From: Pseudomonadota bacterium | Lineage (GTDB): Bacteria > Bdellovibrionota > Bacteriovoracia > Bacteriovoracales > Bacteriovoracaceae | Reading direction: 5' to 3' | DNA: 12,108 nt | NCBI GenBank assembly: GCA_023432655.1 | Contig: JAEYUK010000016.1 | Location: 1-12,108 of the forward strand | In this document: positions 422 to 6,033 of the stretch, piece after piece | How the letters are laid out: each line of letters begins with the position of its first letter | How positions within the stretch are numbered: position 1 is the first letter of the stretch | Notes under the pieces: generated by a model | What the model saw: only the letters and a program-made list of their open reading frames with translations | What the model was told of the DNA's origin: nothing | Database searches by the model: none | Program-made: the position numbers and the translations under genes

Positions 422-1435
422 ATGGTCATCACACAAAGTTTGAGATTTTCTTTTCTCCTGGCCACTTTGATAAGTTGCGGTCCGGCCAAAGACATGCCCC
501 AATTTTATACAGAAGAATTAAGTCCAGTTTCCTACACATCTCAACTAGAAGTTCTCTTTGAAAAAGACCAAAAAGTTTTTTACCTCTTGCCACTGAGTGG
601 CTCGGTCACCAAAGAAAAAATACTATGGTCAGGATATGATTGGAGCGCACAAGAGGGGGGTATCAATCTACGCTGGAATGAACCTGAAAGGAGTTGGCAG
701 AATACGAACTCCCCCGGCTGGTTTGAAGCCTTGTTAATGACAACGGAACAATTAAAAACGCTTTCCCCTTCAGAGAAATATGATCTTCTTCTTGGCCAAT
801 ATCAATATCCGTTTAAAGAACTAGTCAGTAACACTCCCATTGAAAATCTCCGAAAAGGATGGATACTGGCAACTCTTCATCATAAAGAACCCACTGCTAA
901 AGAAGTAAGATCCAACGAGGGGATCAAGGTTCCCTTTGGGAGTTCAGACATTAAGGCCCTCCTAAGTTTTTATTATGCCCACAATTTTAAGCTCATGAAG
1001 GTTAAGGAGATCGGCGGAGCAAACAATGAACTTGATGCAGGCACATTTCACGCAGTCCTGGGCAATTCAATTGGTCTCAAAAATTCAAGTTTCCTCATGG
1101 GCAACCTACCGGTTAAAAGTTACGCTTCAAGGATTGAAGAAGAATTAGGTGCTATTGAAGGGGCCCCACAAGGAACAATTAAGACCATTAAAATAAGAGC
1201 TCGGGTTGTCAGTATTTCTCCTACCACCGAAAACTCGTGGGAAGGAATACTTGAGACTCCTGCCCAAAAAACTATCGCTGGGGAGTATTCCTATTACCTC
1301 TATCTAAATCAAGACAATGAAATCCTAAAAGGGAAATGGTTAAGTCCTGAGAGACCGATAAAGATTTGGGTCGCAGAAAAAAACAAAGACTTCCTTCCTC
1401 CCTTAGAACATTTAGGAAAGCTTCTCGATGACTAG
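422..1435 (+). CDS. Lipoprotein, degenerate paralogue of transglutaminase-elicitor family
   Basis: A 337-residue lipoprotein precursor. The start is fixed by GGAGGT at 411-416, 5 nt before ATG, and by a signal peptide ending in LIS-C19. It is a clear paralogue of the next gene: LPLSG / LPLKG, LSPSEKYDL (114-122), PFGSSDIKALLS (171-182), NNELD (201-205), FH (209-210), NSWE and a closing GKWLSPERP block align in order. Where the sister protein reads GLCHGW, this one reads NLRKGW (142-147), so Arg144 replaces the presumed catalytic Cys. The VWNHP segment and the preceding FVAD aspartate are missing, through a deletion of about nine residues. It keeps a full-length frame, so it looks like a maintained non-catalytic partner (pseudoenzyme) rather than a pseudogene. 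It overlaps the next gene by 8 bp, so the two are probably translated together. Family placement is from the sister gene; loss of activity is inferred. Confidence 0.8.
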   Translation: MVITQSLRFSFLLATLISCGPAKDMPQFYTEELSPVSYTSQLEVLFEKDQKVFYLLPLSGSVTKEKILWSGYDWSAQEGGINLRWNEPERSWQNTNSPGWFEALLMTTEQLKTLSPSEKYDLLLGQYQYPFKELVSNTPIENLRKGWILATLHHKEPTAKEVRSNEGIKVPFGSSDIKALLSFYYAHNFKLMKVKEIGGANNELDAGTFHAVLGNSIGLKNSSFLMGNLPVKSYASRIEEELGAIEGAPQGTIKTIKIRARVVSISPTTENSWEGILETPAQKTIAGEYSYYLYLNQDNEILKGKWLSPERPIKIWVAEKNKDFLPPLEHLGKLLDD

Positions 1436-2468
1436 AATCATTCTTTCGCTTCTCCTACTATGGGGATGCGGTAAGCCCATCGAAGAGAAAGAAAAAAAAT
1501 CATCATCGCTTCTCATTAGTGAAGTCCACGAGAAAAAAATTTTAAAGATCCGAATGTCATTAAACTTTAACTATCTTCCACTGAAAGGAAGAATCACAGG
1601 TCAGTCGAAATTTTGGTCAGGAAACTCATGGAGACTCAACCGGGGGGCCATCAATTATCGTTGGAACTCTCCACTGAAAGAAACCATAGGCTATCTCTCT
1701 CCTTCCACCAGAGAAATTTTTTCCATGCCTCTGGAGAAATTAAAAGAACTGTCCCCCTCGGAGAAATATGACCTTTATAGGGGCCGCTACGACTTTCCAC
1801 TAAAGAACAGTATAGAATGGATCTCCCGAAGGGATGCGGAGGACTGGGAGGGACTTTGTCATGGTTGGGCGGGGGCAAGCCTCAATCACCCGGAGCCCAA
1901 ACCAAAAAATATGATGAATCCAGATGGGCTCCTTATCCCCTTCGGCTCTTCCGACATTAAGGCCCTCCTCTCCTATGCTTATTCAACTCTCATCCTGAGT
2001 GAAGAGGAATTTCTAGGCTTTCGTTGCGAAGATCCAAATAATGAAATTGATCATTGTCATGAAGATTTAAAGGCCAGTGACTTCCATGTGGCCCTGACCA
2101 ACCTGATTGGGCTCAGAGGAAGAAGTTTCGTGGCAGATCTTGAGCGCTATAAGGAGGTCTGGAATCATCCCATAACTTCCTATTCTTCAGAGATCCTGCA
2201 GAATATTAAAAACCGAAATTCACATAAAATCATTCTGAGAACAACACTGGCCTATCTAGATGTGATTGAGAAAAATTCCTGGGAACGACTGGATAATCCG
2301 AAGATGGAGAATCAAATAACTTTCGAATATGAGCTCACCCTGGACGAAAAAGGGAATATCACTGGGAGTAAATGGAGATCGAGAGAGAGACCTGACTTTT
2401 TATGGATCATTCCCGAAAGAGAGAATTTCGCAGGAGATCTAACAAAGATTCATGACTTATTAAACTAA
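1428..2468 (+). CDS. Transglutaminase-elicitor family lipoprotein (GP42-like)
   Basis: A 346-residue lipoprotein precursor with a short signal peptide ending in LWG-C14, followed by a Lys/Glu-rich linker (15-40). The body matches what I recall of the transglutaminase-elicitor family (Phytophthora GP42 and Vibrio homologues; Pfam TGase_elicitor). In order it has W140-E-G-L-C144-H-G-W with a candidate nucleophile Cys144, PFGSSDIKALLSY (171-183), NNEID (204-208), DFH (218-220) with candidate catalytic His220, FVAD (234-237), then EVWNHPITSY (243-252), and a C-terminal GSKWRSRERPDFLW block (313-326). GP42 carries the Pep-13 motif VWNQPVRGFKVYE at the corresponding place, and the Trp and Pro survive here. 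The family forms Gln-Lys crosslinks (acyl transfer from glutamine). As a lipoprotein this one would act in the periplasm or on the cell surface. Its ATG overlaps the stop of the upstream paralogue (ATGACTAG). The family call is good from motifs; catalytic activity is inferred. Confidence 0.78.
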   Translation: MTRIILSLLLLWGCGKPIEEKEKKSSSLLISEVHEKKILKIRMSLNFNYLPLKGRITGQSKFWSGNSWRLNRGAINYRWNSPLKETIGYLSPSTREIFSMPLEKLKELSPSEKYDLYRGRYDFPLKNSIEWISRRDAEDWEGLCHGWAGASLNHPEPKPKNMMNPDGLLIPFGSSDIKALLSYAYSTLILSEEEFLGFRCEDPNNEIDHCHEDLKASDFHVALTNLIGLRGRSFVADLERYKEVWNHPITSYSSEILQNIKNRNSHKIILRTTLAYLDVIEKNSWERLDNPKMENQITFEYELTLDEKGNITGSKWRSRERPDFLWIIPERENFAGDLTKIHDLLN

Positions 2469-2470
2469 AA

Positions 2471-2495
2471 GAGGGCCACAAGGGGCCCTCTTCTT
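2471..2495. terminator. Terminator between the lipoprotein pair and the small secreted peptide gene
   Basis: A GC-rich 7-bp stem GAGGGCC (2471-2477) / GGCCCTC (2484-2490) has a 6-nt loop. It is preceded by AAAA and followed by TTCTT. It sits between two convergent genes, and read on the minus strand the stem is followed by TTTT, so it probably serves both. Confidence 0.75.
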
Positions 2496-2507: not shown

Positions 2508-2657
2508 CTATTCTTCCAACACACACTCATCCGTAGAATCCGGACCTGAAAGCGCATTTTCATTATTCACATCAGCTTGAGACACATCCACATGAAGTGC
2601 CAGGAGACCACCGATAGTCAGAAGAAGAAAATTTTTCCAAATTGATTTACGTTCCAT
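2508..2657 (-). CDS. Small secreted acidic peptide, 49 residues, single Cys
   Basis: A 49-codon minus-strand gene. Its start is strongly supported: GGAGG (complement of 2665-2669) lies 7 nt before ATG. The product opens MERKSIWKN, followed by a hydrophobic run FLLLTIGGLLALHVDV, then VSQA, a typical signal-peptidase I site. The predicted mature peptide is only 21 residues. It starts DVNNENALSG, is strongly acidic (eight Asp/Glu, no Lys/Arg) and has one cysteine near the end (DECVLEE). I do not recognise a family. It is monocistronic, convergent with the lipoprotein pair and shares their terminator. A lone Cys in an exported peptide suggests a disulphide-linked dimer, attachment to another protein, or metal binding, but none of this is shown. 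It may also be simply a small exported protein of unknown role. Confidence 0.7.
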   Translation of the reverse strand: MERKSIWKNFLLLTIGGLLALHVDVSQADVNNENALSGPDSTDECVLEE

Positions 2658-3068: not shown

Positions 3069-3560
3069 TTACTTACGATCTAAGATCATGAAAGTAAAAT
3101 CGTGATCATTGTCTGCGTTTTGAGAAAAATGCTGTTCGGAGACTTTTTTCCAATTTTTAAGAGACAAAGTTGGAAAATAAACATCTCCCTTAATATCCCC
3201 TTTAACTTCTGTCAGATAAATTCTATCTACTAATGAAAGAGCGTATTTAAAAATTTTCTCTCCCCCAATGATAAAGAGCTCAGTCTCCCCATTTCTTTCG
3301 GCCTGCTTAATGGCGCGAAAAATAGAATTGAACCAAAACACATTACTTAGGTTTGCCTGGGGCGTGTTAGAGATGACCAAACTCATTCTGCCAGGCAGAG
3401 GCTTACCAATGGATTCGAACGTTTTTCTTCCCATCAAGATATGATGACCCATAGTGAGCTTTTTAAAATTTTGAAGATCATCTTTCAGGTGCCAGGGAAG
3501 AGTATTATTAATCCCAATCACATTGTTATCACTCTTGGCCACAATAAATGAAATTCTCAT
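3069..3560 (-). CDS. folA: Dihydrofolate reductase
   Basis: The enzyme reduces dihydrofolate to tetrahydrofolate with NADPH in the cytoplasm, regenerating the cofactor that thymidylate synthase oxidises. It is 163 residues, the usual bacterial length. It starts MRISFIVAKSDNNVIG, has LPWHLKDDL (21-29) with Asp28 at the catalytic acid position, GRKTFESIGKPLPGR (44-58) for NADPH binding and IIGGEKIF (97-104). I chose the ATG at 3560 over in-frame starts upstream because only it gives the canonical N-terminus. The upstream extension reads through thyA in another frame. The ATG follows the thyA stop after one nucleotide, so the two are probably translationally coupled; its own Shine-Dalgarno (GGCGG) is weak. 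Assignment is secure. Confidence 0.97.
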   Translation of the reverse strand: MRISFIVAKSDNNVIGINNTLPWHLKDDLQNFKKLTMGHHILMGRKTFESIGKPLPGRMSLVISNTPQANLSNVFWFNSIFRAIKQAERNGETELFIIGGEKIFKYALSLVDRIYLTEVKGDIKGDVYFPTLSLKNWKKVSEQHFSQNADNDHDFTFMILDRK

Positions 3561-3561
3561 G

Positions 3562-4356
3562 TTACACCGCCACAGGAGCTTTAATATGAGGATGAGACTG
3601 GTAGTTAACCAGCTCAAAGTCTTCATATTTAAAACTGAATATGTCTTTAACATCCGGGTTAATTTTTATCTGTGCCAGCGGATATGGCTCTCTTTTTAAT
3701 TGTTCCTGTGTTTGTTCAAGATGATTAACATAAAGATGAGCGTCGCCGAAGGTGTGGACAAAATCCCCGACCCCTAATCCGCAAACCTGAGCAATCATGT
3801 GAGTCAGAAGAGCATAACTTGCAATATTAAACGGCACTCCTAGAAAAATATCGGCCGAACGCTGATAAAGCTGACAAGATAATTTATTATCTGCCACATA
3901 AAACTGAAACATCGTGTGACAAGGAGGGAGCGCCATTTTATCAACATCGGAAACATTCCAGGCCGAAACAATGAGGCGCCTGGAGTCCGGATTTTTTTTA
4001 ATCATCTCTATCAAGTTGGTGATCTGGTCAACGGTTCTTCCGTCATGAGTTTTCCAACTGCGCCACTGAACACCATAGACTGGACCTAAATTTCCATTTT
4101 CATCGGCCCACTCGTTCCAGATTGAGACCCCGTTATCTTTAAGATATTTAATATTTGAATCCCCTTGCAGGAACCAAAGAAGTTCATGAATAATCGATTT
4201 CATATGGCACTTCTTAGTAGTGACCAGAGGGAAACCTTCATTCAAATTAAAGCGCATTTGATGGCCAAAAACAGAGATCGTACCCGTACCGGTGCGGTCT
4301 TCTTTTTTAACCCCTTCACTTAAAACTCGCTTCATGAGTTCGTGATACTGCTTCAT
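3562..4356 (-). CDS. thyA: Thymidylate synthase
   Basis: Classical folate-dependent thymidylate synthase: dUMP plus methylene-tetrahydrofolate gives dTMP plus dihydrofolate, in the cytoplasm. At 264 residues it is the same length as E. coli ThyA, and key positions keep the same numbers. They are Arg21 (EDRTGTG), Arg126-Arg127 (DSRRLIV), nucleophile Cys146 ([12 protein letters not shown]), Arg166-Ser167-Ala168-Asp169 (YQRSAD) and Asn177 (FNIASY). The protein ends in APVAV, as is common. GGAGG (complement of 4361-4365) lies 4 nt before ATG. It is the first gene of a thyA-folA operon. Nothing suggests the alternative ThyX route nearby. Confidence 0.98.
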
Positions 4357-4391
4357 TCGGCCTCCAATATATGTATGCTGATCCTAGAAAA

Positions 4392-4421
4392 ATCTTACCA
4401 GACATACTAAGGCTTGTTCAA
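4392..4421 (-). promoter_or_regulatory. Possible thyA-folA promoter
   Basis: On the minus strand TTGAAC (4421-4416) and TAAGAT (4397-4392) are separated by 18 bp, each matching its consensus at four of six bases. The -10 ends 35 bp before the thyA start codon, leaving room for the ribosome binding site. Confidence 0.35.
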
Positions 4422-4450
4422 CACATGCCTCGCTGCCAATTTTTTGACAA

Positions 4451-4813
4451 TTATTCCTGAAGGCGTCTGAAGAGCAAGATTTCCTTCGTTTTGAGTTCTT
4501 TAATGGAAAAATTCGACGAATTTAACTCGATTATTTGGTGATTTCGGTAAAGAGACCGGTTTTGGTTACTAAGAATAAAAAAGATTTCTCCAGAAACACC
4601 CCAAATCCCTCCGCTTTTCACCTTTCCGTTCAAATCTTTTTCCTGGTAATCCCCAGCTGGTGACAACACTAAGAGAGACTTCTTGCCTAACCATTTACCT
4701 ACGAGAAGCGAGCGGTGCTCATTTTCCATTCTAGTCGCTTCCGGATCATTGTATTGAACCGATGGCCTATGAGCACAACTGAAAAAGAGAAGACTTAAAA
4801 AAATATATTTCAT
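4451..4813 (-). CDS. Small lipoprotein with a lipocalin-like domain
   Basis: A 120-residue lipoprotein precursor: MKYIFLSLLFFSC, with Cys13 as the lipid-attachment residue, then a short linker and a compact beta-rich region. The pattern LVGKWLG (37-43), SPAGDY (51-56), SGGIWGVSGEIFFI (67-80), IIELNSSNFSIKEL (94-107) and a closing RR resembles small lipocalin-like or calycin domains (a GxW entry strand, then alternating strands). No catalytic residues stand out. Family placement is by pattern only. No Shine-Dalgarno sequence precedes the ATG; a near-consensus promoter places the transcription start at or next to the ATG (separate entry). The start codon is only 29 bp from the divergent NamZ-like gene. 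Confidence 0.75.
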   Translation of the reverse strand: MKYIFLSLLFFSCAHRPSVQYNDPEATRMENEHRSLLVGKWLGKKSLLVLSPAGDYQEKDLNGKVKSGGIWGVSGEIFFILSNQNRSLYRNHQIIELNSSNFSIKELKTKEILLFRRLQE

Positions 4814-4820
4814 AAACTAA

Positions 4821-4849
4821 ATCATATTTTCAGGAGAATCTTATGTCGA
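4821..4849 (-). promoter_or_regulatory. Near-consensus promoter that would give a leaderless mRNA
   Basis: On the minus strand TCGACA (4849-4844, five of six) and TATGAT (4826-4821, five of six) are exactly 17 bp apart. Only 7 nt separate the -10 from the ATG of the 4813 lipoprotein gene, so transcription should begin at or within a base or two of the start codon. The -35 box overlaps the start codon of the divergent gene at 4843, and that gene's Shine-Dalgarno sits in the spacer. Confidence 0.5.
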
Positions 4850-6033
4850 TAGTTACAACAGGTTTGGAGCGTATCCTTACAGAAAAGAATTTGCAGGAAA
4901 AGTTTAAGGGGAATATTGCTTACCTTTGTCATAGTGCTTCTGTCACCAAAGACCTGGAGCATGGGCTTCTGGCCATCCAGCGTGTTTTTGGAAAACAACT
5001 CACCAAAATATTTGGCCCTCAACACGGATTCGTGACAGATGTTCAGGATAATATGGTTGAATCGAATCACTATGTTCATCCCTATTTTAAGTTACCCGTT
5101 TACTCTCTTTATTCGGAAACCCGTATCCCAACTGATGAAATGCTGGAAGGACTTGATCATATTTTTGTCGACCTCCAGGACGTTGGAACAAGAATTTATA
5201 CTTACATCTACACCATGACTCTCCTCATGGAGGCCTGTCAGAAAAAAGGCATTGAAGTTGTTATTCTTGATCGTCCGAATCCTATTAATGCCGACACTCT
5301 TGAAGGCAACATTCTGGATTTAAATTATGCTTCTTTTGTTGGTCGCCATCCCATTCCTGTTCGTCACGGAATGACTATGGGTGAAGTGGCCAGAATGCAT
5401 CAGAAATACTGGGGCGGTAAAGACTGCAAACTAACAGTGATCGAAATGAAAGGCTATGACCGCAAAATGAGCTATGAAGACACCAAACTTCCATGGGTCC
5501 TCCCTAGTCCTAATCTTGCTACCATTGAAGCGGCCTATACCTTTGTAGGAACAGTCCTCTATGAAGGGACTAACATCTCCGAAGGCCGTGGTACAACCCG
5601 TTCTCTGGAAATTATAGGTCATCCTCAAATTGAAGCCTTTGGTTTTCATGAAAAGTTAAAACCTGTTTTAGAAAAGGCAAAACTTCAAGGATTTGTTCTA
5701 AGACCTCTGGTCTTTCTTCCTACTTTCCAAAAACATATGGGTAAACCTTGCGGCGGTTATCAGATTCACGTCACAGACAGAAAAACTTTTGAGCCATGGC
5801 GCCTGTGCCAATACTTACTCCGTGAAATGTATCATGAATTAGGTTCTGATTTTAAATGGAAAGAACCACCCTATGAGTATGAGTTCCATAAGGTACCAGT
5901 GGATCTTATTAATGGTACTGACGAACTTCGCCACTGGGTTGAAAAACGTGGAAGCGAGGAAGAGTATCAGGCGATCATGAGAAAAAATCAGGAAGAGTTC
6001 CAGGAGCAAAGGAAATCGATCCTGATATACTAA
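4843..6033 (+). CDS. DUF1343 / NamZ-like exo-N-acetylmuramidase
   Basis: A 396-residue member of the YbbC/DUF1343 family. Characterised members (NamZ, GH171) remove MurNAc from the non-reducing end of peptidoglycan fragments. Family motifs seen: FGPQHGF (57-63), SLYSETRIPT (88-97) with Glu92 as my candidate catalytic acid, DLQDVGTRIYTYIYT (110-124), LDRPNPI (142-148), VRHGMTMGE (173-181), PSPNL (221-225) and EGTNISEGRGTT (241-252). The start is set by AGGAG at 4832-4836, 6 nt before ATG. No signal peptide or lipobox is present, so the enzyme appears cytoplasmic, whereas B. subtilis NamZ is secreted. In a predator it could process muropeptides taken up from prey, but that is speculation. Its TAA overlaps the stop codon of the convergent gene. 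The family is secure; the exact substrate is inferred. Confidence 0.9.
   Translation: MSIVTTGLERILTEKNLQEKFKGNIAYLCHSASVTKDLEHGLLAIQRVFGKQLTKIFGPQHGFVTDVQDNMVESNHYVHPYFKLPVYSLYSETRIPTDEMLEGLDHIFVDLQDVGTRIYTYIYTMTLLMEACQKKGIEVVILDRPNPINADTLEGNILDLNYASFVGRHPIPVRHGMTMGEVARMHQKYWGGKDCKLTVIEMKGYDRKMSYEDTKLPWVLPSPNLATIEAAYTFVGTVLYEGTNISEGRGTTRSLEIIGHPQIEAFGFHEKLKPVLEKAKLQGFVLRPLVFLPTFQKHMGKPCGGYQIHVTDRKTFEPWRLCQYLLREMYHELGSDFKWKEPPYEYEFHKVPVDLINGTDELRHWVEKRGSEEEYQAIMRKNQEEFQEQRKSILIY

Follow-up and report, generated by a model that had tools for sequence, protein, structure and literature searches.

Tandem GP42-family lipoprotein genes in a Bacteriovoracaceae genome: a transglutaminase-like protein with intact active-site residues and a paralogue predicted to be catalytically dead

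Two overlapping lipoprotein genes and their products

The DNA analyzed here (the window) is a stretch of 12,108 nucleotides of contig JAEYUK010000016.1. Its forward strand carries two overlapping open reading frames (ORFs) for related lipoproteins. The downstream ORF, at 1428..2468, encodes a GP42-family transglutaminase-like lipoprotein of 346 residues whose active-site residues are intact (protein B). The upstream ORF, at 422..1435, encodes a tandem lipoprotein paralogue of 337 residues (protein A), which has Arg in place of the cysteine corresponding to Cys144 of B and is predicted to be catalytically dead. A was absent from an earlier sequence-only reading of this DNA. The end of A and the start of B overlap by 8 nt at 1428..1435 (ATGACTAG), and an overlap of the same length is present in the related loci L001–L003 and L089.

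The sequence-only reading had placed B in the family of GP42, the transglutaminase of Phytophthora sojae, and the profile search and structural comparison that it proposed both confirm this. B scores 87.1 bits (E 1.3e-24) against the Pfam family PF16683 (TGase_elicitor), well above the cut-off of 25, and the match is therefore not due to chance. The motifs GLCHGW (C144), SSDIKALLSY (D176), DFH (H220), FVAD (D237) and VWNHP (residues 244–248) occur in B in the order that had been described, collinear with the GP42 chain 3tw5_A (E 7.9e-14 in the sequence alignment and 1e-31 with a 79-row profile). The predicted structure of B has the GP42 fold, with 27% identity to GP42 over the structural alignment. 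The nucleophile motif WEGLCHGW (residues 140–147) is encoded at 1845..1868, and in it the predicted nucleophile C144 is directly followed by H145, which gives the Cys-His ("CH") motif. The segment VWNHP, encoded at 2157..2171, aligns with VWNQP of 3tw5, the core of the Pep-13 peptide. At the position matching C144, 3tw5 carries Ser, which we take to be the engineered C290S mutation. NCBIfam gave no match for A or for B. B is thus a new member of the GP42 family, with a predicted lipid anchor.

Over 308 columns A and B share 34% identity, and A scores 31.9 bits against PF16683 (cut-off 25), which makes it a homolog. Its AlphaFold2 model has a predicted local distance difference test score of 91.9 and finds 3tw5 as the best PDB match (E 9.2e-15). 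The counterpart of the nucleophile motif, IENLRKGW at 839..862, has Arg-Lys for Cys-His and has also lost W140 and G142. In the counterpart of the Pep-13-like segment, FLMGNLP at 1091..1111, eight residues are deleted and the Val-Trp pair is lost, and an Asn-x-Pro can still be aligned. D237 is replaced by Gly, and the C200/C210 pair of B is missing. Judged by these residues, A would be a protein of homologous fold that we do not class as a GP42-family enzyme.

Both proteins begin with a lipobox that has Gly at the +2 position: L11-W-G-C14 (LLLLWG-C14) in B, at 1458..1469, and L16-I-S-C19 in A, at 467..478. In E. coli, Gly at +2 would direct such a protein to the outer membrane. The Trp at −2 in the box of B is unusual, but in close relatives the box is of the ordinary kind (ILGC in L001, LSAC in L002 and L003).

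Residue conservation and the lineage of A

We collected 230 homologs from the best 120 of 985 and the best 120 of 320 proteins; the structure alignments held 79 and 56 of them. Among these best-listed homologs C144 is kept in 210, H220 in 230 and D237 in 228. For counts by type, removal of nine repeats from 294 rows left 285 distinct sequences, with near-copies remaining in both sets. They comprise 93 B-type, 15 A-type with Cys, 16 A-type without Cys, nine G-type (Gly for Cys) and 152 other Cys-bearing sequences, the last class still holding P0201 and L035, which the tree places in A's lineage, and P0090 and P0091 of the wider B clade. C144 is kept in 93/93 B-type and 152/152 other sequences. 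C144, H145, W245 and N246 are all present in 94/94 B-type rows (one row is a duplicate), and Asn or Asp takes the place of H145 in all 15 A-type sequences with Cys.

The A-type sequences without Cys have lost much of the site together with the nucleophile. Few or none of the 16 keep W140 (0), G142 (2), R199 (0), C200 (6), C210 (6), D213 (4), W245 (1), N246 (5) or F324 (4), and all 16 keep W63, W68, R78, W79, E112, K113, D115, D176, K178 and H220. The G-type sequences have lost C144 and H145 and kept the other tabulated site residues. W245 is present in 255 and N246 in all 260 of the distinct Cys-bearing sequences; because the VWN segment is largely lost together with Cys in the Cys-less A-type, it behaves as active-site sequence. 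H220 and D176 are kept in 25/25 distinct Cys-less relatives, so that H220 behaves like a structural residue whose conservation is not tied to catalysis.

These counts bear on the Cys144-His220-Asp triad suggested for B, which we do not uphold. According to the part of a review that treats GP42 (PMC10318531), the catalytic His directly follows the Cys, its partner being an Asn on β2 or an Asp of a non-core helix; the equivalent Cys-His in B is C144-H145. As H220 persists in Cys-less copies, a Cys144-His220 pair is not the default assumption. N246 probably corresponds to the β2 Asn of GP42. For the 34 of 260 Cys-bearing sequences that lack H145, H220 might serve as the base.

For the main tree we took 72 chosen rows, including all Cys-less rows of a 195-row set and L111, and left out the C144 and VWNHP columns. 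A single 37-row lineage (98/92) holds A and all 25 Cys-less rows together with 12 Cys-bearing rows. This lineage requires four changes of the Cys; the starred branches alone force four, and one change is allowed in 0/200 bootstrap trees. An earlier quick tree required three. It was made from 195 of 296 sequences, namely those of 300–420 residues, without the window's stop-to-stop duplicates and without rows identical to a kept row (above 72% for Cys-bearing and above 97% for Cys-less rows). The fourth change comes from L111, which was absent from those 195 rows and falls in A's lineage; its gene (3384-4496, reverse strand) has Ser for the catalytic Cys, with H145 and most of the site intact. 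Since the Cys is universal outside A's lineage among the 285 distinct sequences, these changes would be losses and not gains.

A is under constraint, less so than B. Between L002 and L003, ω is 0.125–0.146 for A and 0.061–0.063 for B. Between the window and L001 the synonymous rate (dS) is saturated or not computable, and the nonsynonymous rate (dN) is 0.163 for A, about 0.10 for B and 0.016–0.019 for ThyA.

The lipid anchor that had been proposed for B is supported by its lipobox, all lipoprotein calls here being matches to a loose custom pattern. The pattern is found in 75/89 B-type, 24/27 A-type and 7/7 G-type proteins, in 11 of 13 Cys-less A-type database proteins and in 8/107 others. Lipidation thus tracks the A/B/G branch and not the whole family.

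Gene layout, neighbors and spread of the family

Adjacency of A and B was read directly in the window and in G001, G002, G003, G087 and G085. An A gene without Cys stands beside a B gene with Cys in all of these except G085, where an A gene with Cys, cut by the contig end, adjoins a B-like gene. For 15 of 27 A-type proteins, the window's included, the longest contig equals in length that of a protein of a 60-row B clade, which is a hint of linkage only. Directly 3' of B, at 2469..2493 on the forward strand, a hairpin (−19.8 kcal/mol, z −3.25) might mark the end of an operon; it has no clear T tract and does not appear in the terminator scan.

The two genes face folA and thyA. A transglutaminase gene occupies this site in 10/49 loci, nine of the ten being the window or loci fetched because of their transglutaminase matches. 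A thyA search matched 115/129 genomes; among 40 loci fetched through thyA, one (L111) has a transglutaminase gene there, and about nine of the 40 end within ~1 kb of folA and cannot be scored. We therefore reject a tight link to the site, which is common to A, B and G types and is not general. A 49-residue ORF between B and folA (2508-2657, reverse strand) encodes a protein with a hydrophobic N-terminal part and an acidic tail whose last residues are CVLEE. In tblastn it is conserved behind folA in relatives whether or not a transglutaminase gene was found at the site, and we rejected it as part of the system because it is present, too, in L102, L114 and, weakly, L107, where no transglutaminase gene was found.

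In the mechanical ORF list folA (3069-3653) and thyA (3562-4356), both on the reverse strand, overlap; the more likely start of folA is a later ATG (MRISFIVAK), which is also the start in L002 and L003. A gene for a NamZ exo-N-acetylmuramidase (4843-6033) adjoins thyA, and the same neighborhood is seen in most of the 49 loci. In four relatives a long protein (L001 178-3726, L002 158-3304, L003 14-3304, L089 9696-13301), with a lipoprotein-like start in L089, is encoded immediately 5' of A in the same orientation; Pfam gave nothing above cut-off for it in L001, L003 and L089. The 5' end of the window holds the tail of an ORF that differs by eye from this protein.

Among named genomes, the nearest are metagenome assemblies of Bacteriovoracaceae (class Bacteriovoracia), and B and A are 84% and 76% identical to their counterparts in L001. 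The host is related to known bacterial predators, and its class also holds G105, identified here as Peredibacter starrii, which has nine PF16683 matches. The family was matched in 94/129 Bacteriovoracia genomes (35 without a match), with up to 17 matches per genome, and in 0/14 control genomes; a match need not span a complete gene.

A putative enzyme and partner pair, and its relation to known systems

The GP42 match, the adjacency and 8-nt overlap of the genes, the constraint on A and the concerted loss of its site with the fold core kept lead us to read the pair as an enzyme and a partner. We lean toward a two-gene operon of outer-membrane-type lipoproteins in which B is a working cysteine acyltransferase and A its non-catalytic partner. 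The genes are probably co-transcribed, and both products would have the GP42/papain-like fold. In B, C144 at the N-terminus of a helix would be the nucleophile, with help from H145 and from N246 in the VWN strand, and the enzyme would most likely form Gln-Lys (or amine) isopeptide bonds on the envelope or on neighboring proteins. A role on prey, the envelope or a matrix, as suggested in the sequence-only reading, would be conceivable. A kept its fold, anchor and gene position but neither the nucleophile nor the whole cleft, and beside B it would most likely serve as a partner in binding, targeting or regulation. More tentatively, A's lineage as a whole might consist of lipid-anchored pseudo-transglutaminases whose repeated nucleophile loss reflects a role as non-catalytic partner or receptor at the cell surface, where it would bind substrates or hold them in place for B or for other paralogues.

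Several observations weigh against this proposal. The P. starrii genome has B without A at the site, and an A-lineage gene stands there without B in G083 and G091 (Gly for Cys) and in G097 (Ser for Cys). Neither protein is thus universally needed beside the other, and the putative partnership, still the best reading, would not be obligatory. Eight long family frames (L092–L099) contain no A-B fusion; each has one clear family domain, all with Cys. The promoter scan found no promoter-like site upstream of A, so that the operon is deduced from the layout. The CH motif is not universal, given the Cys-bearing sequences without H145. With dS saturated between the window and L001, the estimate of selection on A comes from the one pair L002-L003, and we found no activity data for a bacterial GP42-family member in the open-licence literature.

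The main competing view of B, which we consider unlikely though well worth keeping in sight, is that of a papain-like cysteine enzyme using the same fold for deamidation, amide hydrolysis or peptide cleavage. Papain-like enzymes share with B the core fold and a nucleophile Cys at a helix start, whereas B has His right after the Cys, as GP42 does; from papain-like and other low-ranked fold matches we take no kinship beyond the shared core. For A, continued catalysis through another nucleophile or chemistry is improbable. H220 and D176 persist in the Cys-less members and L111 has Ser in an otherwise largely intact site, but the A-type Cys is replaced by R, E, V, A and others, or the motif is missing, with no common new nucleophile. 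It is also quite improbable that A is a functionless pseudogene, decaying after the duplication of an enzyme gene. The loss of the nucleophile, the CH-motif His and cleft residues, the faster evolution of A than of B and the lone B gene of P. starrii would suit such decay. Against it stand the intact reading frame, the lipobox and the 8-nt overlap with B, all preserved in the window, L001, L002, L003 and L089, as well as the low ω of A, the 13 Cys-less A-type database proteins, 11 of which have a lipobox, and the fold-core residues kept in 16/16.

The likeness of VWNHP to Pep-13, pointed out in the sequence-only reading, is real insofar as the Trp and Pro are kept, and both matter for elicitation by Pep-13. 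That the segment is a signal for perception by a plant or other host is nevertheless extremely improbable. The family is spread over a phylum, Bdellovibrionota, that to our knowledge is not plant-associated, and the conservation of W245 and N246 follows catalysis, which explains the segment better. A catalytically important Asn of GP42 lies on β2, as stated in the part of PMC10318531 cited above.

Little in the literature resembles this pair. In the open-licence literature we found no tandem pair of live and dead lipoproteins in the GP42 family and no paper on transglutaminase with Peredibacter or Bacteriovorax, and a review of enzymes of predatory bacteria (PMC7174725) contains no occurrence of transglutaminase. 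Papers on Bdellovibrio and transglutaminase include one on vasohibins as transglutaminase-like proteases, those on PF16683 and related names include two on phages, and for bacterial lipoprotein pseudo-transglutaminases we found one paper, by its title on cancer immunology. If A's lineage does consist of pseudo-transglutaminases, A and B would be the first described enzyme and pseudoenzyme pair in the GP42 family, as part of a broad expansion of transglutaminases in a phylum to which bacterial predators belong, and they can be tested as such. The family here has a lipid-anchored branch and a paralogue lineage in which the catalytic Cys has changed several times while the protein was kept. Such natural comparisons with dead enzymes separate catalytic from structural residues and bear on the unusual active site of GP42.

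Compared with GP42 itself (PF16683, PDB 3tw5), a cell-wall glycoprotein in the account given in the relevant part of a 2016 review (PMC4915311), B is bacterial and predicted to be lipid-anchored, its Cys pair C200/C210 does not align with Cys of GP42, and A lacks the nucleophile. The PKD-TGase-PPC lipoproteins of G062 and G063 (L086 357-3959 and L087 2191-5787) come from the same class of genomes, belong to the same Pfam family as B and have a GP42-like domain. In contrast to the pair in the window, they are single genes for multi-domain proteins of about 1200 residues (L086 was scanned). L086 contains PKD, TGase_elicitor and PPC domains and scores 284 bits to 3tw5, much nearer to GP42 than the window's proteins, and the two could bear on the origin of the oomycete gene. 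The same part of the review limits GP42 homologs to oomycetes and some Vibrio, the marine Vibrio proteins (Reiss et al. 2011, as cited there) being bacterial homologs as well. In contrast, we found the family in 207/368 genomes of Bdellovibrionota (161 without a match), often with several matches, so that GP42-type proteins are common and often multi-copy in this phylum.
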